From Gammaproteobacteria bacterium (lineage in GTDB: Bacteria > Pseudomonadota > Gammaproteobacteria > Poriferisulfidales > Poriferisulfidaceae), in contig JAPPLD010000018.1 in NCBI GenBank assembly GCA_028819565.1, positions 1 through 64,000 on the forward strand: a stretch of 64,000 nt of DNA. The letters run 5' to 3'. Under the pieces are notes generated by a model. That model saw only the letters and a program-made list of their open reading frames with translations. It did no database searches and had not been told where the DNA came from. A program made the position numbers and the translations under genes. Below, one piece after another: positions 150 to 56,333 of the stretch. How positions within the stretch are numbered: position 1 is the stretch's first letter; each line of letters starts with the position of its first letter.

Positions 150-3100
150 TCAAGACTGTCTTGAGACATCAATCACGAAAATCTGAATCTTGCTTTTCTC
201 TTCCTCGGAGAGCGTTTCAGGCAGGCGTTGTTTGAGTTCGTTGGCATTCTTGGGCCGGTTGCCGGATTCCGTTGCTTTGCAGTCTTCTTCTCTGAACCAT
301 AGGGCGAGGTAGATTCCGTTTCCATCGGCTCCTGGGTCACGAGTATATTTCGCAATCAATTGGCTCCTGATCGCTGTCCACAAATCAGGATGCATACTTT
401 TCTTGATTTCTATTGGCACGTTGAATCCATCGCAGAAAAGCCGAATATCCGAGCGTTTTTCATTGGCGTAACGACCCTCCGGTTGCGCGTCGATATCTAG
501 AGGAGTCAATAGTGGCCTTAGCTTAGAGAGTAACCGGTCTCTGCAAAAGTCTTCGTGCTGTGGAGCGTGGTCATTTTTCTCACTTGTCCAAAATGCTCGC
601 CAATCGGACGTGTTTCCGTCCTGTATGTCTCTGGCAATCTCCTCCAGTTTCATCATTGCGACCGTGGCCAAATCTGCCGGATTCTCGGGCCGTGCATTTT
701 CAAGGATTCGAAAGACTTCTTCGACAGCGTGGTGCTCAAAATTGTTATCGCGCCGGAGAATTTTTTGCTTATATGCCAGATCAGTCAGGTTTGGATGCCA
801 TGCGCGAAGCTGCTCATTTGCCAAGAGCAATTCAAGCGATTCCGTTGCTTCATGGCTCCAGGTCTGGGACAATTGCTCACAAAAGAATCGGACGCTATGG
901 GCGGCATCCATACCTAGCGTGACTAGACATCCCTCCATTGAGGAATCATCGGTGTTGTAGTAATGCGGACCATACGAGGAACCAAGCAAGCGGATCAGGA
1001 GAGATAGGACAGGAATGCTTGGAGAGTCGGGTAGAGCATCAAGGAACCGGCTGGTCATGATTTCCGCCAAGGCTCGGATCCGGGGTTCTTTCCCGGCGAC
1101 ATAGGACTCCAACCTGTCTTGGTACTGTTCCGGTGCGACGAACAGCCCGGCGGCTAGCCAGCGAACACGCTGGCCGACCTGCATGGTTCGGCTGGAGAGT
1201 TTTTCCTCAACAATGTTGAGGAGAGCCTCTTTCTCGCAATGGAGAACTGCTGCGGTGAGCAGATGGTTCAAGTCCTGCAATCGTTGCTGGGAGCAGCGTA
1301 CGGGGAATGCCTTGAGCAAGGGCAGCGATGCCATGCGGGCGACCTTCTCGTAGTCCTGAGAATGCGCTAGTTCATAAAGTCCCTTGATAAAGTCCGAAGA
1401 GCGACGCAGTTTTTTGCGTGTGGCCGCAACCAAGATATCTGACACCATGTCTGGCCGGGATTGCAGCAGTGATGGGAACCACTGCGGGGTTTCGTCTCCG
1501 GTGCGTGGGGGAAGAGGCCACAGGGGTACCGTGTAATAGAAGGCAAGAGCTAGGCGCATTCGTTCTTCACTGATTGAGAGACTTCTGTCTTGGGATGTTT
1601 CGCTGACTTCGTTCAGCCCCGCCATATACGGATAAGCCAGGAGAGGGGTCATGTTGTTAGCTTCAAGACGAAAGATTTCTTCGACACTTGGCAGATCTTC
1701 GCGGTTGATGGACATTCGAAATGCTTGCAGCACCTCCTCAATTAGGCTCTCGTCTTTGCCAAGGAGACTTTCCAGCCGTTCTTTCGGCGTGTCGCCCGAC
1801 ACATCTCCATAGCCACCGTAATACACCACGGCCAGTTCGTAGAGAACGTCACGACGGCACCGATTCGCCAGTAAGTCTTCTTTCATTGAGTTGAGTTGAG
1901 TATGCCACTCCTGCTGGCGCTCCAGAATCTCGGTGTCGTATTTCTCTCGGTGTTGTTTCGTCTCGGCATCGTTTGATGACGCGCCTTCTTGGTATTCCAT
2001 ATAGACCTTAAAAAGGCTTGGCTTTGTCGACAAGCGGCTTTTGACGACCTTCAGAGACAACCCGGCATCGTAATAACTGTTATGTACGCAATTTGCCGTC
2101 CATCGGACAAGATGCTTGGCAATTTCAGGATGTTTCGTGGCGATTGCCCGTTCGAGGCACCAAGCGCCAAAATTTTGCGGCATGCGAGCACTAGCAAGTC
2201 GCTCTCTTGCATAGTGCATGCATAGGTTAGTTTCTTCGGACTCTTTTTCTAACTCTTCACACTGCCTGACTCCCAAGCCGTAAATGTCCAGTAGTGTTTC
2301 AGGATGCTCCGAAAGCCACTCTCCGATTTTTCTGTAGGAGGGCCCTCCTCGGCTGGCACGGATGAGCTCCAGCCAGCAAAGCAGGCGGTATGGGTCGGGC
2401 GCATCTGCGAAATTTTCTAGGTAACATTCAAGCCATCGTTCCGGGAGGTTCCGTAGGTGGTTGAACTGGTCGAAGTTCTGTGAAAACTCTTCGGGAGATT
2501 GATCAAAGAGTTTGACAAGAAAATCCAGCAGTTCTCCGAGTTGCTCTCCAGTCGATTTTCTGGCAACCGTGTGGATCCAGAAGCGGCAATACGACCCGAA
2601 GTAATTTGCCCTTTTCGGGGGCCTTAAATAACGAACCACTTCGGAAGGCGAAAGAGCTTGGGGATAGGTTGCTTCCAACAGGCAGCCGCACAGGTCATCA
2701 CCGGGGTCGAATATTTCTCCTGTTTCAGTTGCCTTCAACAGTTCCATCAATATGTTGGCTCTCTCTTCGTTGTCCTCTATTTGACGAATGAACAGATCTA
2801 GGGCGACACGTCTGGCAAGCAATCCCCATAAGGGGTTTTTGAGTATTCCCAAGGCGAAATCCGACATGCCCGATATGCCAACTCCCGAGTTGAGCGCTTG
2901 CAGGCAGATAAGTGCGAGAGATTGTTGTGAGTCATCGGGTTCCGAAACCGAAAAATACTTCAGGAGTTCTTCTTTCATATCAGGCGTGGCGAAGCCCTCC
3001 CAGCTATGGTCGTACGAGAAGGCGTTCGCGAACCATGGATTTGCTTCGGCTTCACGTTTCAGGGCATCCAGCAAACGCGTTTTCTGGTTCACCGAGAAAT

Positions 3101-4232
3101 TCCGGATATGGCCATACGCGATGACCCCATAGGGGTCAAGTTCGAGCAACTTTTCGCGACTGACCAAACTATGTGTCGCGAGCCATGCCAACAATCCGCG
3201 GAACTCCGACACGATACCGCCACCAAAACCTGTCGTCAGAATCAGAATTCGTCCAACAGGTAAACCTTCCTTGATAAGTTTGGCGAGATATTTTGCACCG
3301 AGGAATTCAGCGACATGCCGGTGATACGGTTCTGCACGGTTCTCTTGTGGGACTCGAAATAATCGGCTGTCGAAGACATCGCGGAATTCGCTTCGGTTCC
3401 TATGAGGTACCCGATTCGGGGGGAGATATGTATCTGAATTTTCGTCGTTGTCTAGACTGTATCCTGCGCAACCGGTCAAGATCTGAATGGCGAATAGTTT
3501 GCCTGCCGCCATGAGCAGATCCGGTACACTTGACGAGCGTTGACGTCTACTTTTGCGGTCCGGGTTTCCTTCTTCCAGCAATTTTTCGCAGGCAAGGTCG
3601 AATGCCCGTTCTCTGTCCTCCGGCCACTGACCTCCCAGTTGGGCGACGGCCAGCGCCAGCATTTCGAGATTTTGGGGGTTGTCTAGGAGATACTCAAGTT
3701 CTTTTTGATTCGCGGACTCGATGAATGCCTCGGGATCTGCAACATTCAGCCGTTTTTTGAGGACTTCCCTGACATCCTCCAAGGATAATGGCTCTAGGCG
3801 TAGCACTAGGATTTTTTCATTGTTCGGGAGAAGCGTGTCTAGAGCATTCCTGTCGCTGGGCCCCAGCCAGTCGGCCGCCCGACAGGACAGGCGGAATTTT
3901 GGGGTCCCGAGGCGATGGAGTTTGCCGCGAATGATACCGAGCGGGGTCTGTGGGCCCGCGTCTCCGGCAGGAATTTCGTCCAGTCCGTCGATGAACAAGG
4001 TTTTCCCCATCCATTCGGAGTCCTTGTCGAAATCGAGGAAGTCGCGCGCAGGGATAAAGCAGCAAGTTTCTTCGGATCCAGCTTCTTGTTTGAATGCTGT
4101 GGTTTTTCCCGCACCGGGCTCGCCGAGCAGCACGTAGGCAGGTATCTCCTTGAAGTCGCCCAAATACTGCGGAAGTGAAGAGGATTCACCCTCCCTGATC
4201 TCGCGGCATTTCCGTTGAACTGCGAACGTCAT
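150..4232 (-). CDS. NACHT/STAND-like NTPase with C-terminal PD-(D/E)XK-like nuclease motif
   Basis: The protein has 1360 residues. A P-loop NTPase module lies at the N terminus: Walker A GEPGAGKTT at residues 37-45, Walker B LFIDGLDEIPAG at 79-90, and an SCRAADW segment near 116-122 that resembles the NACHT/STAND sensor arginine. A very long, apparently helical region follows, of the kind that senses ligands in STAND proteins. Near the C terminus D1262, E1275 and K1277 (IEIKK) form a PD-(D/E)XK-type pattern, suggesting a fused nuclease. The start codon overlaps the stop of the upstream ATPase gene (ATGA), so the two are probably translationally coupled. Base composition is more AT-rich than the neighbouring aceE operon. 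An antiphage or other defence role is inferred from architecture; I do not recognise it as a named system. Confidence 0.7.
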   Translation of the reverse strand: MTFAVQRKCREIREGESSSLPQYLGDFKEIPAYVLLGEPGAGKTTAFKQEAGSEETCCFIPARDFLDFDKDSEWMGKTLFIDGLDEIPAGDAGPQTPLGIIRGKLHRLGTPKFRLSCRAADWLGPSDRNALDTLLPNNEKILVLRLEPLSLEDVREVLKKRLNVADPEAFIESANQKELEYLLDNPQNLEMLALAVAQLGGQWPEDRERAFDLACEKLLEEGNPDRKSRRQRSSSVPDLLMAAGKLFAIQILTGCAGYSLDNDENSDTYLPPNRVPHRNRSEFRDVFDSRLFRVPQENRAEPYHRHVAEFLGAKYLAKLIKEGLPVGRILILTTGFGGGIVSEFRGLLAWLATHSLVSREKLLELDPYGVIAYGHIRNFSVNQKTRLLDALKREAEANPWFANAFSYDHSWEGFATPDMKEELLKYFSVSEPDDSQQSLALICLQALNSGVGISGMSDFALGILKNPLWGLLARRVALDLFIRQIEDNEERANILMELLKATETGEIFDPGDDLCGCLLEATYPQALSPSEVVRYLRPPKRANYFGSYCRFWIHTVARKSTGEQLGELLDFLVKLFDQSPEEFSQNFDQFNHLRNLPERWLECYLENFADAPDPYRLLCWLELIRASRGGPSYRKIGEWLSEHPETLLDIYGLGVRQCEELEKESEETNLCMHYARERLASARMPQNFGAWCLERAIATKHPEIAKHLVRWTANCVHNSYYDAGLSLKVVKSRLSTKPSLFKVYMEYQEGASSNDAETKQHREKYDTEILERQQEWHTQLNSMKEDLLANRCRRDVLYELAVVYYGGYGDVSGDTPKERLESLLGKDESLIEEVLQAFRMSINREDLPSVEEIFRLEANNMTPLLAYPYMAGLNEVSETSQDRSLSISEERMRLALAFYYTVPLWPLPPRTGDETPQWFPSLLQSRPDMVSDILVAATRKKLRRSSDFIKGLYELAHSQDYEKVARMASLPLLKAFPVRCSQQRLQDLNHLLTAAVLHCEKEALLNIVEEKLSSRTMQVGQRVRWLAAGLFVAPEQYQDRLESYVAGKEPRIRALAEIMTSRFLDALPDSPSIPVLSLLIRLLGSSYGPHYYNTDDSSMEGCLVTLGMDAAHSVRFFCEQLSQTWSHEATESLELLLANEQLRAWHPNLTDLAYKQKILRRDNNFEHHAVEEVFRILENARPENPADLATVAMMKLEEIARDIQDGNTSDWRAFWTSEKNDHAPQHEDFCRDRLLSKLRPLLTPLDIDAQPEGRYANEKRSDIRLFCDGFNVPIEIKKSMHPDLWTAIRSQLIAKYTRDPGADGNGIYLALWFREEDCKATESGNRPKNANELKQRLPETLSEEEKSKIQIFVIDVSRQS

Positions 4233-5509
4233 AGGCCCTCGGGAAGGTCGCGGGCGGGAATCGACAGGAATTTCGATAGCGACATGCCATTGGCGCCGAC
4301 TAAGACGGGAACCACGTCCTCGAAGCGTGTTTTGATTTTCCGAAGCCCGGGCGGATAGGATCGCTTGCGCCCACTCTTGACCTCGACTGCAATGAGTTTC
4401 GGGCCGCGTTTGAGTACAAAGTCAACTTCGTAGTCCTTCTCTCTCCAGTAATAGAGTTTGCTAGAGGGATTTTGGGTGTTATGCAAATGTGCGCCGACGG
4501 CACTTTCGACAAGACGGCCCCAGAAACTCCGGTCGGCCTGCGCTTCCTCGAAAGTGTAGTCGGAGAGTAGCGGAATGAACGCAGTGTTCAGCACGTTGAG
4601 TTTCGGCGAGGAGTGTTTCCTGAGATGAGGGGCATTGCTGTATTTCTGTAGGCCAGTAACCAGGTTTGATTTCGACAGCAGGTCCAGATAGCGGATTAAG
4701 GTGGTCGTGTGGCCTTTGCCTCTTAACTCCCCCAACATTTTGGTGTACGACATGATCTGGCCTGAGCATTCGACCCCGAGTTCGAATAGCAGTTTCAGTA
4801 GAGCGGGATTTTTTATCTGCTCCATGGCTAGGATGTCTCTTTCAATATTAGGTTCGATGATTGCGTCTGCAATGAATTTCCGCCACTGGCTTTGTTGGTG
4901 GATGTACGATGCGCCCCCCGGATAGCCGCCAAAATAGAGGTATTGCTCCAGGCTGAAACCAAATGCCTCCCGCATTTCCGTGAACGACCAGTGAGGAACA
5001 TGGACGGTGATGTACCGACCGGTCATGCTCTCTTTCGCCATGCCCTTCTGCATCAGCAAGGGGGCCGAGCCGAGGAGAATTACATGAAGCCGGGTTCCGT
5101 TGATACGGTCGCGGTCCCAAAGCCCCTTGACGGTCGGAGACCAATCCGGGATTTGCTGGATTTCATCGAATACTAAGACAAATCCGTTTTCCAGACGACG
5201 GGCTTGCTCCCGTGCCTTTTCCCATAGGCTCCTTATCCAATTCGCGCCTGGTTCGCCGAGGAGCGTATCCACGGTTTCCGCCAAAGGGCCCTGTGGTGAT
5301 CCGGTCTGACCGGGAAAGGCGGGCAATGTGCCCTGTCCCGGCTCATCAATCGGGATATACTCTCTATTGGAAGGGGGAATGTCCGCCAAGGCTTGGAGGA
5401 CGAGAGTGGTCTTCCCAGCCTGACGGGGACCGGTCACGAATATCATGCGACTGGGCGGGCTGCCCAATAGCGACTGAATTTCTTTTACTTGCTGGCGTTT
5501 GTAGTGCAT
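4229..5509 (-). CDS. AAA ATPase with DUF4143 domain
   Basis: The protein has 426 residues. The N-terminal AAA_14-type ATPase shows Walker A GPRQAGKTT at 27-35, Walker B VLVFDEIQQIP at 111-121, and a VILLGSAPLL sensor-like strand at 143-152. The C-terminal half matches the DUF4143 layout, ending with D363 and E376-V-K378, the PD-(D/E)XK-like core of that family. Such ATPases are common in bacteria, often in accessory regions, and their role is poorly defined. It is the first gene of a two-gene operon, with a 4-base overlap to the large NTPase-nuclease. An 8-bp inverted repeat sits just upstream of its start and may be an operator. Whether it acts with the downstream protein or is an independent toxin-like element cannot be told from sequence. 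Confidence 0.8.
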   Translation of the reverse strand: MHYKRQQVKEIQSLLGSPPSRMIFVTGPRQAGKTTLVLQALADIPPSNREYIPIDEPGQGTLPAFPGQTGSPQGPLAETVDTLLGEPGANWIRSLWEKAREQARRLENGFVLVFDEIQQIPDWSPTVKGLWDRDRINGTRLHVILLGSAPLLMQKGMAKESMTGRYITVHVPHWSFTEMREAFGFSLEQYLYFGGYPGGASYIHQQSQWRKFIADAIIEPNIERDILAMEQIKNPALLKLLFELGVECSGQIMSYTKMLGELRGKGHTTTLIRYLDLLSKSNLVTGLQKYSNAPHLRKHSSPKLNVLNTAFIPLLSDYTFEEAQADRSFWGRLVESAVGAHLHNTQNPSSKLYYWREKDYEVDFVLKRGPKLIAVEVKSGRKRSYPPGLRKIKTRFEDVVPVLVGANGMSLSKFLSIPARDLPEGL

Positions 5510-5521
5510 GGCGACACTATA

Positions 5522-5555
5522 TTACTATATCTCTGAAATTTACGAGGTATAGTAA
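5522..5555. promoter_or_regulatory. Inverted repeat upstream of the ATPase operon
   Basis: TTACTATA at 5522-5529 and TATAGTAA at 5548-5555 are perfect inverted 8-bp arms separated by 18 bases, 13 bases upstream of the minus-strand ATG at 5509. The placement suits an operator controlling the two-gene operon. No regulator gene lies beside it. Confidence 0.45.
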
Positions 5556-5669
5556 CACAAATTTAGAAATACCGCAATCTAGGTTTGAATCAAGGTACAG
5601 GCGCAACGCACAGAATGAATCTATGCAAAGAATCTTCTTTTTGGTTGCAAGGCGAATCGACTCTCTTCC

Positions 5670-5698
5670 TTGACAAGATGCAACTTGATGGCTTTAGA
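5670..5698 (+). promoter_or_regulatory. Possible aceE promoter
   Basis: A consensus -35 TTGACA at 5670-5675 is followed 17 bases later by TTTAGA at 5693-5698, a weak -10. It would give an untranslated leader of roughly 70 bases before aceE. No PdhR-type site was recognised. Confidence 0.3.
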
Positions 5699-5747
5699 GT
5701 GTATCTACCGTTTTCCGCATCAAAAACCGGTGGGCGATAATAGGGGT

Positions 5748-5761
5748 TGATTCTGGAATCA
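5748..5761. promoter_or_regulatory. Palindrome just upstream of aceE
   Basis: TGATTC-TG-GAATCA is a perfect 6-bp inverted repeat with a 2-base centre, ending 14 bases before the aceE start. It could be an operator half-site pair or a leader hairpin near the ribosome-binding region. No clear Shine-Dalgarno sequence is visible between it and the ATG. Confidence 0.35.
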
Positions 5762-5775
5762 GATTCATCGGTCTC

Positions 5776-8441
<2,666 letters not shown>

Positions 8442-11768: not shown

Positions 11769-11908
11769 CCGGGTCTTCCCTGATTTAGGCCCTGCTCGTG
11801 ACAGCGGGCATTCCGGTGCTGGAGCCGGTGATTCCGTGTTTTCCTGGTACGGCAGCAAGTAATCAGATCACGCCCATTGCGGGCGCATTCCAGCAAGAAA
11901 ATACTTTA
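11769..11908. other. Intergenic stretch between the orphan antitoxin and the hip operator
   Basis: No gene is supported here. A plus-strand frame stays open for about 40 codons up to the hip promoter region, but it has no start codon with a ribosome-binding site and no recognisable similarity. It may be debris of an earlier gene. Confidence 0.3.
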
Positions 11909-11935
11909 TTGCGTATATAATATAATTATACGCAA
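11909..11935. promoter_or_regulatory. hipBA operator/promoter palindrome
   Basis: TTGCGTATA (11909-11917) and TATACGCAA (11927-11935) are perfect 9-bp inverted arms around a 9-base AT-rich centre, 37 bases before hipB. The palindrome contains two overlapping TATAAT hexamers (11916-11921 and 11921-11926), so a bound HipB dimer would cover the -10 region. This fits the known autoregulation of hipBA operons; the operator sequence differs from that of E. coli. Confidence 0.65.
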
Positions 11936-11971
11936 AAGCGTGTTGTTGTTCTGTCGGAACAGGAGCTGACA

Positions 11972-12220
11972 ATGAATCAAATTGCCCGAACTGCGAAACA
12001 AGTTGGTGTGGCGGTGCGTCGCCACCGTCGTGCACTGGGATGGAGTCAAAGCGATCTCGGGTCAAAATCGGGTCTGCGCCAGGCGACGATTTCGACGCTG
12101 GAGAGCGGAGAACCTGGAACGCGTTTGCGCACACTGGTCGACGTCATGGTCGCGCTCGAACTCGAGGTGGTAATCCGGGATCGCTCCAAGGCTCCTAAGA
12201 GCGTCGAAGAACTGTTCTGA
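11972..12220 (+). CDS. hipB: HipB-family antitoxin, XRE-type repressor
   Basis: This 82-residue protein has an XRE helix-turn-helix (VGVAVRRHRRALGWSQSDLG, then KSGLRQATISTLESG at about 30-45), the fold of HipB. It should bind the palindrome upstream and neutralise HipA. The C-terminal strand (LELEVVIRDR) matches the HipB dimerisation strand. Its stop and the hipA start share one base (TGATG), so translation is coupled. Confidence 0.88.
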   Translation: MNQIARTAKQVGVAVRRHRRALGWSQSDLGSKSGLRQATISTLESGEPGTRLRTLVDVMVALELEVVIRDRSKAPKSVEELF

Positions 12221-13530
12221 TGGCGCGTCGACGAACCCACATTCCTCTTGATGTCTACCTCAATGCCCGTCTTGTCGGCCGGCTGCATCGGTCGGCGGGC
12301 GGAGCGATTGAACTCCGGTACGACGAGAGTTGGCTGGATTGGGAGGGTGCCCTGCCGGTTTCGCTCTCGCTGCCGCTGCGCGAGGAGCGTTACTCGGGTG
12401 ATGCCGTCATTACGGTTCTGGACAACCTGCTTCCGGATGACGAGGCGGTTCGTCGCCGGATCGCGGAGCGGGTCAGGGCCGAGAGCCACAGCGTTTACGA
12501 TCTCCTGGCAAAGATCGGGAGGGATTGTGTGGGCGCCTTGCAATTCCTGCCCCAGGGGCATGAGCCCGATCCGGCGGATGCAGTGGAGGGACACAGGATT
12601 TCCGACGCCGAGATTGCCCGGAGGATTCGCAGTCTGGCCATGACTCCGCTTGGCCTCGACGAGGAGGAGGCATTCAGGATCTCAATTGCGGGCATGCAGG
12701 AGAAAACTGCTTTCCTGCACTGGAAGGGGGAGTGGCACCTCCCGCACGGCACGACGCCGACGAGCCACATCATGAAGCCGCAGATCGGCGTGTTGCCGAA
12801 TGGCATCGATCTTGCGCAAAGCGTCGAGAACGAATACCTGTGCCTCAGGCTGGCTTCCGCATTCGGCCTGCCCAGCGCCCGCACGGAAATCCTGGACTTC
12901 GACGGGGTCCGCGTACTGGCGATCGAGCGCTTCGATCGGCGTTGGGATCCGGAGGGTCGATTGTTGCGGTTGCCGCAAGAGGACTGCTGTCAGGCTCTTT
13001 CCGTTCCGTCGTCCTTGAAATACGATGCCGACGGCGGCCCGGGAATGTCCGACCTTCTCGATCTGCTGAAAGGCAGCGATTCGCCGTCGGCGGACCGGCA
13101 GTTGTTCCTGAAAGCCCAGGTCGTGTTCTGGCTGCTCGGCGCGACCGACGGGCACGCCAAGAATTTCTCTATCTTCCTGAGACCGGGATCCCGGTTCCAT
13201 ATGGCCCCGCTTTATGACGTGATGTCGGCACAGCCTGCCGTGGATGCGGGGCAAATCAGGAAGAACCAGTACAAGTTCGCATTCGCGGTCGGCGACAATC
13301 GGCACTACGTCATGGGCACGATCCTGCCGCGCCATTTCATACAGACGGCGAGGGGCAGTGGCATGGAGGCTGCGGTCGTCGAAACGATCTTTGCGGACGT
13401 GATCGAGTCCGCTGATCGTGCAATCGGTGAAGTGCTGGATTCTCTGCCGGGGGATTTTCCCGACGGGATCGCCGAGTCGATTGCCCAGGGCTTGGGGGAG
13501 CGCTTGGAGTGGCTTGAGCGGACCGCATGA
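12220..13530 (+). CDS. hipA: HipA-family serine/threonine kinase toxin
   Basis: The protein has 436 residues against 440 in E. coli HipA. HipA phosphorylates glutamyl-tRNA synthetase and induces growth arrest; the substrate here is inferred from the family. Key positions are intact: the autophosphorylated serine in ISIAGMQEK (S155, E. coli S150), the catalytic aspartate in DGHAKNFS (D310, E. coli D309), and the metal-binding aspartate in LYDVMSA (D333, E. coli D332). The toxin therefore looks functional. It sits directly after hipB and ends before a separate vapBC promoter. Confidence 0.92.
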   Translation: MARRRTHIPLDVYLNARLVGRLHRSAGGAIELRYDESWLDWEGALPVSLSLPLREERYSGDAVITVLDNLLPDDEAVRRRIAERVRAESHSVYDLLAKIGRDCVGALQFLPQGHEPDPADAVEGHRISDAEIARRIRSLAMTPLGLDEEEAFRISIAGMQEKTAFLHWKGEWHLPHGTTPTSHIMKPQIGVLPNGIDLAQSVENEYLCLRLASAFGLPSARTEILDFDGVRVLAIERFDRRWDPEGRLLRLPQEDCCQALSVPSSLKYDADGGPGMSDLLDLLKGSDSPSADRQLFLKAQVVFWLLGATDGHAKNFSIFLRPGSRFHMAPLYDVMSAQPAVDAGQIRKNQYKFAFAVGDNRHYVMGTILPRHFIQTARGSGMEAAVVETIFADVIESADRAIGEVLDSLPGDFPDGIAESIAQGLGERLEWLERTA

Positions 13531-13565
13531 AAGGTTTCCAGCAGGCGTTTTTACTACTTTCAGCA

Positions 13566-13594
13566 TTGAATTATTCTTTATTTCCTCCTATAAT
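13566..13594 (+). promoter_or_regulatory. vapBC promoter
   Basis: TTGAAT at 13566-13571 and a perfect TATAAT at 13589-13594 are separated by exactly 17 bases, just after hipA and 21 bases before the vapB start. This indicates that vapBC is transcribed independently of hipBA. Confidence 0.65.
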
Positions 13595-13608
13595 AAGGAA
13601 AGGAGGAA
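13582..13608. promoter_or_regulatory. vapBC operator covering the -10 and ribosome-binding site
   Basis: TTCCTCC (13582-13588) and GGAGGAA (13602-13608) form a 7-bp inverted repeat. The left arm abuts the -10 and the right arm is the Shine-Dalgarno sequence. It could be the VapB operator. In the transcript the right arm is the ribosome-binding site, but transcription probably starts downstream of the left arm, so repression at the DNA level is more likely than an RNA switch. Confidence 0.4.
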
Positions 13609-13615
13609 TTTCGAG

Positions 13616-13870
13616 ATGCCTTTGAACATTAAGAATGTCTCGACCCATGCGTTGGCGAAAAAAATCGCAGCCTTGACTGGAGCGTCCATGACCCAAGTGG
13701 TCACCGAGGCTCTCCAGGAGAAATTAGCGCGAATGGAAAAAGCGAAAGATCGCATCGGACTTGCGGAAGAGCTTGACCGAATTTCTTTGCGTTGTGCGAG
13801 CTTGCCAAGGCGTGATGACAGGAGCCCTGAAGAAATCATCGACTATGACGATCGCGGGTTGCCGCAGTGA
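13616..13870 (+). CDS. vapB: VapB-family antitoxin (PSK/Rv0623-like)
   Basis: The protein has 84 residues. The start is the ATG preceded by AAGGAGG. The N terminus (MPLNIKNVSTHALAKKIAAL) and the following TGASMTQVVTEALQEKL match antitoxins of the PSK/Rv0623 type, which pair with PIN-domain toxins. The acidic C terminus (SPEEIIDYDDRGLPQ) resembles the tail that blocks the toxin active site. The stop overlaps the vapC start (GTGA). Confidence 0.85.
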   Translation: MPLNIKNVSTHALAKKIAALTGASMTQVVTEALQEKLARMEKAKDRIGLAEELDRISLRCASLPRRDDRSPEEIIDYDDRGLPQ

Positions 13871-14271
13871 TCGCGGTTGACGCATCCGCTCTCGTCGCGA
13901 TTCTGAGCGATGAACCTGAACGGGGTCGTTACAACCGGCTGATCGAGTCGGGGGAATCCACCTACGTCAGTGTTGCAAGCCTGCTCGAGGCTCGTATCGT
14001 TTTATTTTCCCGCTTTGGCGACCCGGGAGTTTCAGCACTGGATTCCTTCCTCCTGAAAAGCGGCATGACTGTTGTAGAGGTCTCACCCCGTATGGGCGAT
14101 ATTGCTTTCGAAGCCTATCAACGCTTCGGCAAGGGAACAGGCCATGGCGCATCTTTAAACTACGGAGACTGTTTTTCGTATGCCTTGGCAAAACACCTGG
14201 GTGCTCCGCTTCTTTTCAAGGGTGACGATTTTTCCAAGACGGACATCGCTTCGGCACCAGCGAACATGTAA
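13867..14271 (+). CDS. vapC: VapC-family PIN-domain ribonuclease toxin
   Basis: This 134-residue PIN-domain protein starts at GTG, overlapping the vapB stop. Acidic residues of the active site are visible: D5 in IAVDASALVAIL, a Glu in SLLEARIVL, an Asp in NYGDCFSYALAK and an Asp in KGDDF. VapC toxins cleave tRNA or rRNA; the target here is unknown. All acidic positions are present, so it is probably active and held by the upstream antitoxin. Confidence 0.88.
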   Translation: MIAVDASALVAILSDEPERGRYNRLIESGESTYVSVASLLEARIVLFSRFGDPGVSALDSFLLKSGMTVVEVSPRMGDIAFEAYQRFGKGTGHGASLNYGDCFSYALAKHLGAPLLFKGDDFSKTDIASAPANM

Positions 14272-14274
14272 GCA

Positions 14275-14558
14275 ATGGCCGAGGACTACAGGGTGTTGTA
14301 TGCTGAATTGGATTCACCCGACAAGGCGGCGTCGCCTATCACGATTTCGTGCGCGAGGCGGTCCGGCGTTGCGTACTTGAGTGGAAGGGTTTCCGGCCAG
14401 ACACTGTCAGGGCGATGGCAGTTGAGGCCGACATTCCCGAAGCCGACCGAGAGCCGGTCGTAGATTATGTTGGAAATGAATTTCGCGGACTGCATGAGGG
14501 CAACGTGATACGCTACCGGTTGAATCCGGAGGATCTCGCCGGAATCGGGAGGGATTGA
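14275..14558 (+). pseudogene. Small gene of unknown function broken by a frameshift
   Basis: An ATG at 14275 opens a frame (AEDYRVLYAE), while the longer coherent C-terminal part (IGFTRQGGVAYHDFVREAV ... LHEGNVIRYRLNPEDL) lies in another frame and has only a GTG at 14349 as a possible start. Restoring one A in GAATT around 14305-14308 joins the two into a 95-residue protein reading LYAEIGFTRQGGVAYH. It is followed after one base by a phd antitoxin gene, so it was probably part of that small operon. Function is not recognised. A sequencing error is an alternative to a real mutation. Confidence 0.5.
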
Positions 14559-14559
14559 G

Positions 14560-14814
14560 TTGTCTGTGCGTTATTCGATGACCGAGGCAAGAACCCGTTT
14601 CGGCGAATTGCTTCGAAAGGTTGAGCGTGGGGAGACCGTCGTGATTACCTGGCATGGACGGACGGTGGCGCACATGGTTTCGGACAAGGAGGCTGAATGT
14701 GAAGACCACGCTCAGGCGGTCGCCCGTTTTTACCGTCGCTTACAGGCACTGGAACCGACCGGCATGACCATTGAGGAAATACTACAGACACTCCATGAGG
14801 GGCATCGCTACTGA
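14560..14814 (+). CDS. Phd/YefM-type antitoxin, no partner toxin beside it
   Basis: The protein has 84 residues and starts at TTG, placed 6 bases after GGGAGGG; a GTG two codons later is less well spaced. The N terminus (RYSMTEARTRFGELLRKVE, then GETVVITWHGRTVAHMV) is the Phd/YefM fold, which binds operator DNA and a partner toxin. The C-terminal part (ALEPTGMTIEEILQTLHEG) matches the toxin-neutralising tail of such proteins. No Doc, YoeB or PIN toxin follows; the next gene is 186 bases away and unrelated. The preceding frameshifted gene may be its lost partner. Confidence 0.78.
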   Translation: MSVRYSMTEARTRFGELLRKVERGETVVITWHGRTVAHMVSDKEAECEDHAQAVARFYRRLQALEPTGMTIEEILQTLHEGHRY

Positions 14815-14949
14815 TCTTTAGTCAGGGCTGTAGGCATCAAGATCTTGCGGAACTTCCCGTGCTGATGGTTCCAAGGGGAGCATCAATTGGCGATTTTCCT
14901 GGTGTGCGGTTAGCCCTATTATTGTTGCGGGTGTCCGTTAAATGTGTGA

Positions 14950-14978
14950 TTGCGTCTCGATGAAGTTCCGGCTAGAAT
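14950..14978 (+). promoter_or_regulatory. Promoter of the DGQHR-nuclease gene
   Basis: TTGCGT at 14950-14955 and TAGAAT at 14973-14978 are separated by 17 bases. Transcription would begin near 14985, giving a leader of about 16-28 bases depending on which start codon is used. Confidence 0.5.
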
Positions 14979-15000
14979 TCTGCGATCGATCGATTGAATA

Positions 15001-17328
15001 GTGAGCAATGGTATGACAGAGGAGTATCTTGGCCCTCTTGTCTCGGGTGATGAGATCAATTCCGAGTTGAGGCGGCGGAAGAGTAAGGACTTGTTCAAGA
15101 CGATTTCGGAATCAAACGAAGAGCTTCGTGCCAAGAAGGTGCAACTCGAAGAAGAAGACGGCTGGTGCATTGTCAGGGAGAACGTCAAGTCTACACGGAT
15201 GGCCAAGCCCAAACCGGCGGATGAACAGCTTGAAGACGAGGTCTGGTCGATTCTAGTCCAGATGGGTTTCAAGGAGATGAGCAAAGGACGGCAGTTCACG
15301 ATTGCAGTTGAAAAGGATCTTCCACCCCGCCAGATTGATGTTTTCGCCAAGGACGACGAAAGCGTTGTCATTGTTGAGTGTACGCAGCGCGACGCACCGG
15401 GCAAGAAGAGCATGGCGAGCCTAATCGAGAAGATTAGGGCGATTCGGGAAAGTGTGCTGAAGTCAATCCATAAGGTATACGGCCAACAGACCAAGCTTAA
15501 GGTCAAGTTCGTCATTGCCACACGTAAAATCTCGTGGAGCAGTGTGGACATCGACAAGTGCAAGGAAGCGCAGATCGCTGTCATTACGGATGGTGAACTG
15601 GACTACTACGCGGCACTTGTGCAGCATCTAAGGCACGCTTCACGCTATCAGTTTCTTGGTCATATGTTTGAAGGCCAAAAGATCGACGGTCTGGTGCGCC
15701 AAGTGGTTGCTGCCCGCGGGAAGATGGGAGGGCATACCTTTTATTCGTTCTTGATCGAGCCCGATGAACTTCTGAAAATCGCCTACGTCGGTCACAAGGC
15801 GGGTCGTGACATTGACAATCTTAAGACATATCAGCGTATGCTCCAGCCCCGTCGGTTGAAGAAGATCGCCGAATATATCAATGGCGGTGGTCAGTTCCCG
15901 ACGAATATTGTTGTCAATCTCAAGACGAACAGAAGGTCAGGGCTTGAGTTTGAGACAAAAGAAAAGTTTGGCAAAAAGGCCTTGGGTGTGCTTCATTTGC
16001 CTCCCATCTATGCCTCGGCTTGGATTATTGACGGCCAGCACCGCCTCTATGGTTATGCCTATGCGCGTGATGCAGGAGGCTTCAATCAGGATTCCACAGT
16101 CCTGCCGGTGCTTGCCTACGAGAACCTGCCTGCTGAAGAGGAGATGAACCTGTTCATCGACATTAACTCCAAGCAGGTCAAGGTAAAGACCGGACTCTTA
16201 GTTGAACTCTATTCTGATCTCCATTGGAAATCCACCAATCCTGAAGAGGCCTTTCAGGCCCTGCTCTCGCGTATCGCGTCACAGTTAAACAGCGACCCTG
16301 ACTCGCCACTTTATAGCCGGATGGTCGTAACCGGGAAAAAGAAGACAAACTATCGCTGCCTTACGCAAACATCGATTCGCGACGGATTGTCGGTTGCTGG
16401 ATTATTGGGAACATTCAATAGGGGCACAATTGTGCCGGGCCCACTCTCCACTGCTAGGGCTGATGCCTATGACGCTAATCTAAAAAAAGGCCTTTCAGTA
16501 ATTTCGAATTGTCTAGGGATATTTTCGGCGAAGATGCCGACCCATTGGGAAACTGGTGATGGGCCTAACGGGTATCTATGTACGAACAGCGGCCTTCAGG
16601 CACTGTTTCATGTCATCCAAGACATTTCAAACTATATCAAGCACAGGAACGGGGTGGACCTTTATCTGCTTGGTGCTGTTGAGACATTTAAAAATATCGA
16701 GCCCTATCTTCAGGCTCTCGCTGACTTCTTCGAGAATGCCTCCGGCCAAGAAATACAAGCCTTTAGACGGATTGGTTCATCGCGATCCGCTTTTCGTCAG
16801 CAAGCCTATGGCATGGAAATGCACATCCAGAAAAAATTCGAAAATTTCAAGACAGCGGGACTTCAGAAATATTTGGAAGAGCTCGACGAAAAAGGCACCG
16901 AAGAAGCACAAAAAAAGGTCCGGCGCATTCAAACACGGTTGTTTGACTACGTTATTGGCACCCTGAAAAAGCAATACGGCACACAAGACCATGCTTGGTG
17001 GGTTCAAGGTGTCCCGGTAAAGATCAGGACGGATTGTAGCGCTCGCTGGGAGGAAAAAAGCCGCGAAGGTTCCGTGGAAAAACAACTTTTTCTGATTAAT
17101 TATGTTGACATCTGCATTAACAATTGGGACATTGTCAAAGATGTAATTTCCCTTGACGCCAAAGACAAGCAAGCGAAGACCGTCAATATAAAATGGATTA
17201 AACGGTTGAACGAAATACGAAACAAAGTTTTCCATCCTGAGCAGGGTGCTTTGAGCACCGAACAGGTAGCTTTCGTCGAAGACATCTATAAGAAAGTTGA
17301 GGAGCACTTTCCTGAAGGCGATGCATAA
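15001..17328 (+). CDS. Restriction-endonuclease-like / DGQHR (DndB-like) / HEPN-like multidomain protein
   Basis: The protein has 775 residues. Around residues 76-200 there is a restriction-endonuclease-like region: EDEVWSILVQMGFKEMSKGR, D113 in QIDVFA and E126 in VIVECTQ. The usual ExK lysine is Thr here. The middle holds the DGQHR signature (IIDGQHRLYGYA, 344-348) and INSKQVKVK, typical of DndB-like proteins linked to phosphorothioate or other DNA-modification defence. The C terminus carries R740-N-K-V-F-H745, the Rx4-6H pattern of HEPN ribonuclease domains. GTG at 15001 or ATG at 15013 could start it; neither has a strong ribosome-binding site. It stands alone after its own promoter, in an AT-rich accessory region, with no dnd genes near. 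A stand-alone defence role is inferred. Confidence 0.72.
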   Translation: MSNGMTEEYLGPLVSGDEINSELRRRKSKDLFKTISESNEELRAKKVQLEEEDGWCIVRENVKSTRMAKPKPADEQLEDEVWSILVQMGFKEMSKGRQFTIAVEKDLPPRQIDVFAKDDESVVIVECTQRDAPGKKSMASLIEKIRAIRESVLKSIHKVYGQQTKLKVKFVIATRKISWSSVDIDKCKEAQIAVITDGELDYYAALVQHLRHASRYQFLGHMFEGQKIDGLVRQVVAARGKMGGHTFYSFLIEPDELLKIAYVGHKAGRDIDNLKTYQRMLQPRRLKKIAEYINGGGQFPTNIVVNLKTNRRSGLEFETKEKFGKKALGVLHLPPIYASAWIIDGQHRLYGYAYARDAGGFNQDSTVLPVLAYENLPAEEEMNLFIDINSKQVKVKTGLLVELYSDLHWKSTNPEEAFQALLSRIASQLNSDPDSPLYSRMVVTGKKKTNYRCLTQTSIRDGLSVAGLLGTFNRGTIVPGPLSTARADAYDANLKKGLSVISNCLGIFSAKMPTHWETGDGPNGYLCTNSGLQALFHVIQDISNYIKHRNGVDLYLLGAVETFKNIEPYLQALADFFENASGQEIQAFRRIGSSRSAFRQQAYGMEMHIQKKFENFKTAGLQKYLEELDEKGTEEAQKKVRRIQTRLFDYVIGTLKKQYGTQDHAWWVQGVPVKIRTDCSARWEEKSREGSVEKQLFLINYVDICINNWDIVKDVISLDAKDKQAKTVNIKWIKRLNEIRNKVFHPEQGALSTEQVAFVEDIYKKVEEHFPEGDA

Positions 17329-17577
17329 ATTCAGGTGATTGCTTCGGTGGGTTCAGGGCCCTGCCTCCGCGCTAGGATAATTGCGGTCGACAACGCTATC
17401 TCTGCAGGGATGAAACGCGAGTCGATGCATGCAGGTTAAAAACATCTGCTTGTTGTACCGGAGGTCTGATTGTTTTGAAGAGGTGCGCCAACCAGTAAGT
17501 GCTACCGACTAAACGAGAGTCTGCAAAGAGTTTTGTACGCTATACTTGCCGCGCTTTCTTGCCATGCCGCTATTCCA

Positions 17578-54094: not shown

Positions 54095-55249
54095 TCATCC
54101 AGACGTCGAAATCACCTGTTCCGCGCAGTTGGCCAGTTGGCGCATGCCGGCCGCCGGTCCCAGTCGCTCCTCGACTTTCTGCAGTTGCACACGCACCTGA
54201 TCAAGTTGAGCCGGATCGTCCAGCCACGGCGTAAGGGCGGCCGTAACCCGCTGGGGCGTCGCATCGGCCTGAATCAACTCGGTAACCAGGTCTTCGCCCG
54301 CGACGATGTTCGCGAGGCAATACCGGTCAATGCGCACCAGCAAGCGTGCCAGCAGGTAGCTCAGGTTCGCCAGGCGATAGATCATGCAGAACGGGACGCG
54401 CATCAAGGCCAGCTGCAAAGTGACCGTGCCGGAGGCCGCCGCCGCCATGTCGCACACCTGCATGGCGTCGTAGACCGGTTCCTGTAGGCATTTCACTTCG
54501 GGCAGGTCGCCGAGCCACGGGGCGTAGTCGTTCGGTTTCAGCCCGGGCGGCATCACCAGTGCGAACTGCGGTCGGGCGGGATGATTCCTCAGTTCGCGCA
54601 CCGCTCCGGCGCAGACCGGCATCAGGTGGGCGAGTTCGCTGCGCCGGGAGCCGGGGAAGAGACCGATCACGGGGCGTTGTGCGTCCAGTCCCCAGCGCTC
54701 GCGGACGGTATCGGGCGGTCGCGTCGGACTTGTTTGTCCGCGCAGGGGGTGTCCGACATAAGTGACGGGCACGCGATGTTTCTCGTAGAAATCCCGTTCG
54801 AACGGGAAGACTACCGCCATGTGGTCGACATGGCGCCGGATCTCGTGCACCCGCCAGGCCCGCCAAGCCCAGATCTGCGGACTGATGTAGAACAGCACCG
54901 GCACGCCGTGCCGATGCGCGAACCGGGCAAGCCGCAAGTTGAATTCCGGGTAGTCGATCAGCACCAGAAGCTGGGGCTTCCGGGTTAGGACCTGCGCCTT
55001 GAGGGTCTTCAATGCGCCGCGAATCTCTCGGTAATGGCGTAAGACCTCCACCAGCCCGACGACCGCAAGCTCGGTGGAATCGACCACCAGTTCAATGCCA
55101 GCTTCGCGCGAGGCTTCGCCGCCCATGCCGGACCAGGTCCACTCGGGATGCCGGGCACGCAATTCCTCGACCAATTCCGCTGCGTATCGGTCCCCGGAGG
55201 CTTCCCCGGAGACCAGCATCAGGTGGGGAGCCGCTTCAGGATTCGGCAC
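54095..55249 (-). CDS. lpxB: Lipid-A-disaccharide synthase
   Basis: LpxB joins UDP-diacyl-sugar to lipid X, making the lipid A disaccharide. It has 384 residues from the GTG at 55249 (PNPEAAPHLMLVSGEASGD), overlapping gnnB by 14 bases; an ATG at 55219 would remove part of the first strand. The conserved SGEASGD loop, FYISPQIWAWRAWR, PGSRRSEL and AASGTVTLQLAL (nucleotide-binding GT-B site) are intact. It is the last gene of a minus-strand operon with gnnA and gnnB, and convergent with lpxA rather than directly following it. Confidence 0.94.
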   Translation of the reverse strand: MPNPEAAPHLMLVSGEASGDRYAAELVEELRARHPEWTWSGMGGEASREAGIELVVDSTELAVVGLVEVLRHYREIRGALKTLKAQVLTRKPQLLVLIDYPEFNLRLARFAHRHGVPVLFYISPQIWAWRAWRVHEIRRHVDHMAVVFPFERDFYEKHRVPVTYVGHPLRGQTSPTRPPDTVRERWGLDAQRPVIGLFPGSRRSELAHLMPVCAGAVRELRNHPARPQFALVMPPGLKPNDYAPWLGDLPEVKCLQEPVYDAMQVCDMAAAASGTVTLQLALMRVPFCMIYRLANLSYLLARLLVRIDRYCLANIVAGEDLVTELIQADATPQRVTAALTPWLDDPAQLDQVRVQLQKVEERLGPAAGMRQLANCAEQVISTSG

Positions 55250-56333
55250 GAGCGAGACTGGCGCAGATTTGTTCGATCTGGGCGGGCGAAAGCTCCGGGA
55301 ACATGGGTAGCGACAGGCACTGGTCGCAGACCTGCTCGGCCGCCGGCAGCGAAACCCCATCCGCCCATGGCGTGTAGGCTTCCTGCCGGTGCAGGGGGAT
55401 CGGGTAGTAGATCCGGCTCTCGATACCGTCCTTGGACAGTTGCTCCTGGAAGGCGTCACGCTGCGGGCTCAGCAGGGTGTATTGGTGCCAGACGTGGCCG
55501 TCCGCGCCTGCGGGAGGCTGGATTCCGTCCAGTTTCTGGAGTTTTTCGGTATAGCGGCCTGCGGCTTGCCGGCGTTTCTCGTTCCATTCGGCGACATGGG
55601 GGAGTTTGACGCGCAGAACGGCGGCCTGGAGTTCGTCGAGGCGGCTGTTCAGGCCCAGCGTTTCATGGTGGTAGGGCTGGCTGGAGCCGTGGTTGCGCAA
55701 GGCGCGCAGCCGGGCGGCGAGTTCAGGGTCTCCGGTTGCCACGGCACCGCCGTCGCCGCATCCGCCCAGGTTCTTGCTGGGGAAGAAGCTGAAGGAGGCG
55801 ACCTGCCCGAACGTGCCGGTTGCCTGGTCTGCGGTTCTTGCACCAAAACTTTGCGCGCAATCCTCGACGATGGCGACATCCGGCCCGATTGCTTCCCGGA
55901 CGGCGGAAATGTCGGCCGGCCGGCCGTACAGGTGCACGACCACGGCCGCGCGGGTGCGGGAGGTAATCGCGTTTCGGCACGATTCGGGATCGACCAGGAA
56001 AGAGTCGGGGTCGATGTCCACGAAAACCGGGCGTGCACCGGTCAGGGCAACGGCCTCGGCGGGCGCGGCGAACGTGAAGGCCGGGACCAGGACCTCGTCG
56101 CCGGGCCCAACATCAAGTGCACGCAGGGACAGGCACAGTGCGTCCGTGCCGGAAGCGCAACTGATCACGTGGCCAATGCCGAGCATTGCGCCGAGTTCTG
56201 TTTCCAGGGCCTCGACCTCCGGACCGAGCACGTACCGGCCGCTGCGCAGCACGCGCAGGGCGGCGGCCTCGATATCCTCCTGCAGGGCCGCGTATTGCGT
56301 GGTCAGGTCCAGAATGGGGATGGTGGGGCTCAT
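55236..56333 (-). CDS. gnnB: GnnB-like PLP aminotransferase for UDP-GlcNAc3N
   Basis: The 365-residue protein belongs to the DegT/DnrJ/EryC1 sugar aminotransferase family. The PLP lysine is K187 in FFPSKNLGGCGDGGA and the PLP-pyridine aspartate is D158 in VEDCAQSFGA. Together with the adjacent oxidoreductase it matches GnnA/GnnB of Acidithiobacillus ferrooxidans, where the pair converts UDP-GlcNAc to the 3-amino sugar and the genes lie in the lpxA-lpxB region. Sequence alone could also fit another 3-amino sugar pathway, but the lpxB linkage favours lipid A. It is coupled to gnnA by an ATGA overlap and to lpxB by a 14-base overlap. Confidence 0.82.
   Translation of the reverse strand: MSPTIPILDLTTQYAALQEDIEAAALRVLRSGRYVLGPEVEALETELGAMLGIGHVISCASGTDALCLSLRALDVGPGDEVLVPAFTFAAPAEAVALTGARPVFVDIDPDSFLVDPESCRNAITSRTRAAVVVHLYGRPADISAVREAIGPDVAIVEDCAQSFGARTADQATGTFGQVASFSFFPSKNLGGCGDGGAVATGDPELAARLRALRNHGSSQPYHHETLGLNSRLDELQAAVLRVKLPHVAEWNEKRRQAAGRYTEKLQKLDGIQPPAGADGHVWHQYTLLSPQRDAFQEQLSKDGIESRIYYPIPLHRQEAYTPWADGVSLPAAEQVCDQCLSLPMFPELSPAQIEQICASLARAES

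Follow-up and report, generated by a model that had tools for sequence, protein, structure and literature searches.

A protein joining PD-(D/E)XK-like, DGQHR and Swt1-like HEPN domains in an lpd-thrS defence hotspot

Introduction

DGQHR and ParB domains have been discussed as modification readers or as NTPases for GmrSD and DndB (PMC4619093, PMC10853773). The ParB-like domain of GmrS shares a DGQHR-type motif (PMC4619093), and DndB is reported to be an ATP-modulated regulator in Dnd systems (PMC4507180; reviewed in PMC10853773). In terms of fusions with HEPN domains, a 2013 survey by Anantharaman et al. lists "ParB (Saro_3948), mostly active" among the Swt1-like HEPN fusions; the accessible part of that survey gives ParB and HEPN only, with no mention of an N-terminal nuclease fold or of partner genes (PMC3710099). 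GHKL (HATPase_c_3) ATPases are found beside restriction-type genes in the paraMORC/GHKL-linked restriction-modification neighbourhoods, where the partners, in the accessible part of the source, are response-regulator-like and histidine-kinase-like and no cluster of radical SAM and DGQHR genes appears (PMC8011034).

The protein considered here, P0001, is encoded in a window of 64,000 nucleotides, the whole stretch of DNA that was analysed. It resembles Saro_3948 in joining a ParB/DGQHR domain to a Swt1-like HEPN domain (PMC3710099). With DndB, DpdB and DGQHR_dnd_1 proteins it shares a DGQHR domain with YQR, DGQHR and FxxIN motifs, but it scores far under the equivalog cut-offs, has no dnd or dpd neighbours and carries two extra fused domains. 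With GmrSD and SspE it shares a ParB/Srx-type domain fused to a nuclease, an arrangement associated with modification sensing, and in a sister species the hotspot that holds P0001 contains a GmrSD gene; P0001, however, has DGQHR in place of DUF262 and PD-(D/E)XK-like and HEPN domains in place of HNH, and neither GmrSD_N (DUF262) nor GmrSD_C (HNH) gave a Pfam match in P0001. In 11 relatives the gene with the nuclease fold lies next to, or overlaps, one for a D12 adenine methyltransferase, much as in type II restriction-modification systems; the differences are that the window copy has no adjacent cognate methyltransferase and that the R-like protein includes ParB-like and RNase-type HEPN domains. 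In the literature searched, mostly outside subscription papers and preprints, we found no description of the nuclease-DGQHR-HEPN architecture, of its pairing with a methyltransferase or of the radical-SAM cluster. Beyond the 2013 listing, the same literature appears to hold no account of the nuclease domain, of either partner type or of the hotspot.

Results

The gene for P0001 (15001..17328, forward strand, as are all features within it) is an intact open reading frame of 775 residues, free of frameshifts. The first methionine of its relatives aligns with residue 5 of P0001, and the start codon is therefore probably the ATG at 15013, which gives a protein of 771 residues. Profile searches, Foldseek and hhalign confirm that a single protein combines a nuclease-like, a DGQHR and a HEPN-like domain, as the preliminary description had proposed; that description had also given the gene its own promoter, a claim that was not confirmed, as no sigma-70-like site was found upstream, where about 190 bp 5′ of the gene are gene-free. 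A sequence search of the PDB with P0001 and family profiles as queries returned nothing significant. Purifying selection on P0001 is strong (dN 0.20, dS near saturation and dN/dS ~0.06, pairwise against the L001 homologue), a value that averages the whole branch to L001, along which selection may have ceased after partner loss.

The central DGQHR/DndB domain, of the ParB/Srx type (residues 237–542; 15709..16626), matches TIGR03187 with an E value of 6.9e-58 and a score of 196.6 bits, against a curated cut-off of 58.85, and PF14072 with an E value of 1.4e-11. The DGQHR motif itself (residues 344–348; 16030..16044) is invariant in the family, as are the YQR and FxxIN motifs (14 of 14 members). 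The specialised profiles fit far less well: P0001 scores 60.5 bits against the DpdB equivalog, which requires 300, and 84.9 bits against DGQHR_dnd_1, with its cut-off of 450, and does not match the DndB equivalog profile at all.

The C-terminal region (residues 643–758; 16927..17274) is a probable Swt1-like HEPN domain, predicted to act as an RNase, whose R-x4-H motif is intact. P0001 matches HEPN_Swt1 (PF18731) with an E value of 8.5e-5 and 23.3 bits, below the Pfam gathering score of 27.5. A reference HEPN profile was built from nine independent Swt1-HEPN regions, all PF18731 matches in other genomes, and the family C-terminus aligns with it in hhalign at 97.3% probability and an E value of 2e-11, with the catalytic arginine and histidine columns lined up. 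With the wider family the probability is 98%, and E values overall range from 1e-11 to 1e-13; other regions of the same proteins, used as negative controls, score 0–0.4% against the same profile.

The predicted catalytic motif, RNKVFH (R740-x4-H745; 17218..17235), retains R740 and H745 in 13 of 14 members at 25–71% identity and is degenerate only in L029. A bare Rx4-6H pattern is worthless on its own, since 93% of shuffled P0001 sequences have one; the weight of the motif comes from the position and conservation of RNKVFH. AlphaFold2 models (mean pLDDT 79.4 for the full length and 78.8 for the C-terminus, with 10 and 9 sequences, respectively) give an all-helical C-terminal domain in which a long helix has RNKVFH at its C-terminal end. 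Foldseek with the isolated C-terminal model (pLDDT ~79) matched HEPN entries only at E values of 3–5. The models and the profile alignment do not contradict the earlier reading of RNKVFH as a HEPN motif: they place it at a helix end within the region that hhalign matches to Swt1-like HEPN.

For the N-terminal domain (residues ~60–225; 15178..15675), Foldseek with the full-length model matches VC1899, Card1, Cdn1, Can2 and AF1548, all nuclease-fold entries, with a probability of 1.00 for Card1, Cdn1 and AF1548 over domain-sized alignments (E 5e-4 to 0.1), and the core PD-(D/E)XK fold is predicted in the model of P0001. At the sequence level, the N-terminal 225 residues give only weak matches to Csx1, Card1 and NERD profiles across the family. 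A QxD...EC pattern is conserved among the 14 aligned members: Q111, E126 and C127 are invariant, and position 113 is aspartate in 13, the exception being L025 with asparagine.

The complete D...E-x-K active site is absent from P0001, in which D113 and E126 are present and the lysine is replaced by threonine (E126-C127-T128; 15376..15384). The same position holds threonine in L001 and L004 and arginine in L003 and L025, so that the motif reads ECT or ECR in the window copy and the copies linked to a radical SAM enzyme and usually ECK elsewhere. A clean rule in which lysine goes with a methyltransferase and its loss with a radical SAM enzyme was rejected: the lysine is kept in 10 of 11 methyltransferase-linked copies, with arginine in L017, and because only 15 of 16 loci fit, a count that places the window copy with the radical-SAM branch, the split is a trend. 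The alignment offers K144 in the following helix (15430..15432) as a candidate migrated catalytic lysine, since all five window and radical-SAM-linked members have it; it is also found in L040, alone among the other aligned members, which retains the canonical lysine, so migration is a hypothesis only. Judged from these residues, the catalytic lysine may have migrated or DNA cleavage may have been lost.

Relatives of full or nearly full length occur in a Terriglobia metagenome-assembled genome (71% identity), on plasmid pNL1 (L003, 62%) and on Rhizobium/Agrobacterium plasmids (41%), with more on IMG/VR contigs and in other genomes; E. coli genomes gave no DNA match. The pNL1 homologue is probably Saro_3948 itself, the Saro_ prefix being the locus tag of Novosphingobium aromaticivorans.

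Sixteen loci, one of them split across two contig ends, were compared for partner genes. A D12 adenine methyltransferase overlaps or adjoins the gene in 11 (−50 to +275 nt), an assignment confirmed by PF02086 for eight of the 11 enzymes; the methyltransferase ORF of L016 is short. These linked enzymes form one family, with 37–90% mutual identity, compared with ~30–38% and 23–29% to two other D12 enzymes. In four further loci (L001, L003, L004 and L025) a radical SAM enzyme lies beside the homologue. All four of these enzymes have the CxxxCxxC motif, and one also matches a B12-binding domain. A GHKL/HSP90-like ATPase accompanies three of them (L001, L003 and L004), and L003 and L004 additionally carry a short DGQHR protein and a pair of PIN_8 and second GHKL genes. 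In L004, PADLOC matched neither the radical SAM enzyme nor the PIN protein of this cluster. The window copy alone is partnerless, the other 15 loci having either a D12 methyltransferase or a radical SAM enzyme. The preliminary description had the gene standing alone, which is true of the window copy and peculiar to it. It was right that the window holds no dnd or dpd genes near P0001, and no annotated dnd or dpd operon surrounds any relative examined, as opposed to homologues always embedded in complete dnd operons.

In L001, positions 2142–6700, upstream of the homologue, encode a SNF2-type helicase of 1033 aa and an actin/Hsp70-like ATPase of 486 aa, separated by a transposase-like gene, and the GHKL ATPase of the same locus (L001:12079–13638) weakly matches phage RIIA in PHROG (E 1.4e-7).

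Five further plasmids (L058–L062; rhizobial and Roseomonas) carry the radical SAM, short DGQHR and GHKL genes without the long protein. A group of ParB and DEAD/DEAH helicase genes lies near this core on four of them, and the fifth (Bradyrhizobium sp. 187) has a DEAD/DEAH helicase and hypothetical genes there. Such a constant core with varying neighbours suggests interchangeable modules. PIN_8 and a second GHKL gene often accompany the plasmid cluster.

In a tree of the family, the window copy is sister to L001 (support 100/98) and nested among the radical-SAM-linked copies, which do not form a single clade in this unrooted tree. L025, with a radical SAM enzyme, and L040, with a methyltransferase, are sisters, and the partner type therefore switched more than once. 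No relative of the radical-SAM partner was found in the host genome (31 contigs, 96.7% complete), in a search for which the L001 genome served as positive control; given this state of the assembly, the partner could be missing from it. A search of the host genome for a GHKL relative, run without a positive control, was also negative. Within the window, tblastn found no partner remnants; a segment at 55214–55438 with 35% identity to the long DGQHR protein is out of frame with an aminotransferase-like ORF and was set aside as a chance match. Hidden reliance on a close D12 methyltransferase elsewhere was likewise discarded, as none of the three distant D12 enzymes in the host genome exceeds 34% identity to the linked family. 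The view of P0001 as self-contained is accordingly doubtful, since 15 of 16 loci have a partner and the window copy, itself partnerless, belongs to the radical-SAM-linked branch.

The identity between the window and a sister genome of the same genus (G180; locus L056) runs up to 13541 and picks up again at 17536. The intervening segment (13542..17535) is specific to the species and contains an antitoxin/VapC pair, a Phd antitoxin and P0001. Its GC content is 46–54%, compared with 62–68% in most flanking core genes. The HipBA pair between lpd and thrS is common to both species; where the window has this segment, the sister species carries a D12 methyltransferase with a DUF6996/6997/7226 protein and GmrSD (L056 5875–12365). 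The interval between lpd and thrS is a defence hotspot whose restriction and toxin-antitoxin cargo differs between species, and the window gene was acquired into it horizontally. A toxin-antitoxin array (Xre/HipA, Rv0623-like antitoxin/VapC and Phd) lies upstream of the gene in the window at 11899–14814.

Discussion

We think there is an even chance that P0001 is a stranded restriction-type anti-invader effector with a predicted HEPN RNase arm. The DGQHR core, which is DndB-like and of the ParB/Srx type, would read nucleotide or DNA-modification status and gate both arms of the protein. The PD-(D/E)XK-like domain would engage DNA, although its catalysis is in doubt in P0001, where threonine replaces the lysine of E-x-K, and the Swt1-like HEPN domain would cleave RNA when the sensor fires, leading to growth stop or abortive infection. 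We also infer an anti-phage role. In relatives, the protein would work beside a D12 adenine methyltransferase or a B12-type radical SAM enzyme, which in most cases has a GHKL ATPase with it. The window copy comes from the radical-SAM-linked branch and was acquired horizontally into the hotspot, and no such partner was found in its genome. As the window copy is partnerless, the ancestral mechanism may not apply to it.

The partnerless state, combined with an intact and conserved gene, is also what would be expected of a self-sufficient, type-IV-like enzyme, which, like GmrSD or SspE, would need no cognate modification enzyme and would recognise a modification of invader DNA through the ParB-like domain before cutting DNA, RNA or both. 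The DGQHR-type motif in the ParB-like domains of GmrS (PMC4619093) and the sister species' GmrSD gene at the corresponding position are consistent with this alternative. A partner is nevertheless kept in 15 of 16 loci, mostly a dedicated methyltransferase, which would be superfluous for a type IV enzyme, and we regard this alternative as possible but unlikely. Alternatively, P0001 could be a decaying orphan that lost its partner after its nuclease and is now inert or a DNA-binding regulator only, as might be suggested by the threonine at E-x-K, the absent partners and the additional change of the motif aspartate in L025. The lysine-to-threonine or -arginine change is, however, common to the partnered L001, L003 and L004 and is thus not decay specific to the window; with the HEPN and DGQHR residues all intact, no frameshift and the low dN/dS, decay seems improbable. 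A role like that of DndB, in which P0001 would regulate transcription of a DNA-modification operon and use its nuclease-like domains for binding only, would fit the homology to DndB, a reported ATP-modulated regulator (PMC4507180, PMC10853773), but the lack of dnd genes in the annotated neighbourhoods, the retention of the HEPN catalytic residues across so divergent a family and the fused nuclease fold make it very unlikely.

Returning to the stranded effector and its ancestral partners, we tentatively raise an idea that we consider rather doubtful: a B12-type radical SAM enzyme would have replaced the adenine methyltransferase at least twice (in L025 relative to L040, and in the pNL1/L001 group) and would introduce a novel modification of DNA or of nucleotides that is read by the DGQHR domain and policed by the nuclease and the HEPN RNase. 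If so, the radical SAM-DGQHR-GHKL-PIN cluster of rhizobial and sphingomonad plasmids would be an undescribed modification and defence system, and the window gene an effector that escaped from it; were DNA the substrate of the radical-SAM partner, its product would amount to a self/non-self mark of a new type. The question of modification is directly testable with pNL1 and the Rhizobium and Mesorhizobium plasmids. The family links one effector to two different SAM-using partners, and it would extend restriction-type effectors to a DNase fold and a HEPN RNase arranged around a ParB-like sensor.

Short DGQHR proteins also occur near D12 methyltransferases (L040 9558–10688; L041 8158–9309; L031 1689–4160). 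In L031 a small hypothetical protein lies between the two and there is no long protein. The methyltransferase-linked pair of the long protein is found on IMG/VR contigs (L028 7044–11196; L024 7788–10996; L029 7152–10256), where it looks like prophage cargo, and in L028 it directly follows tail-type genes.
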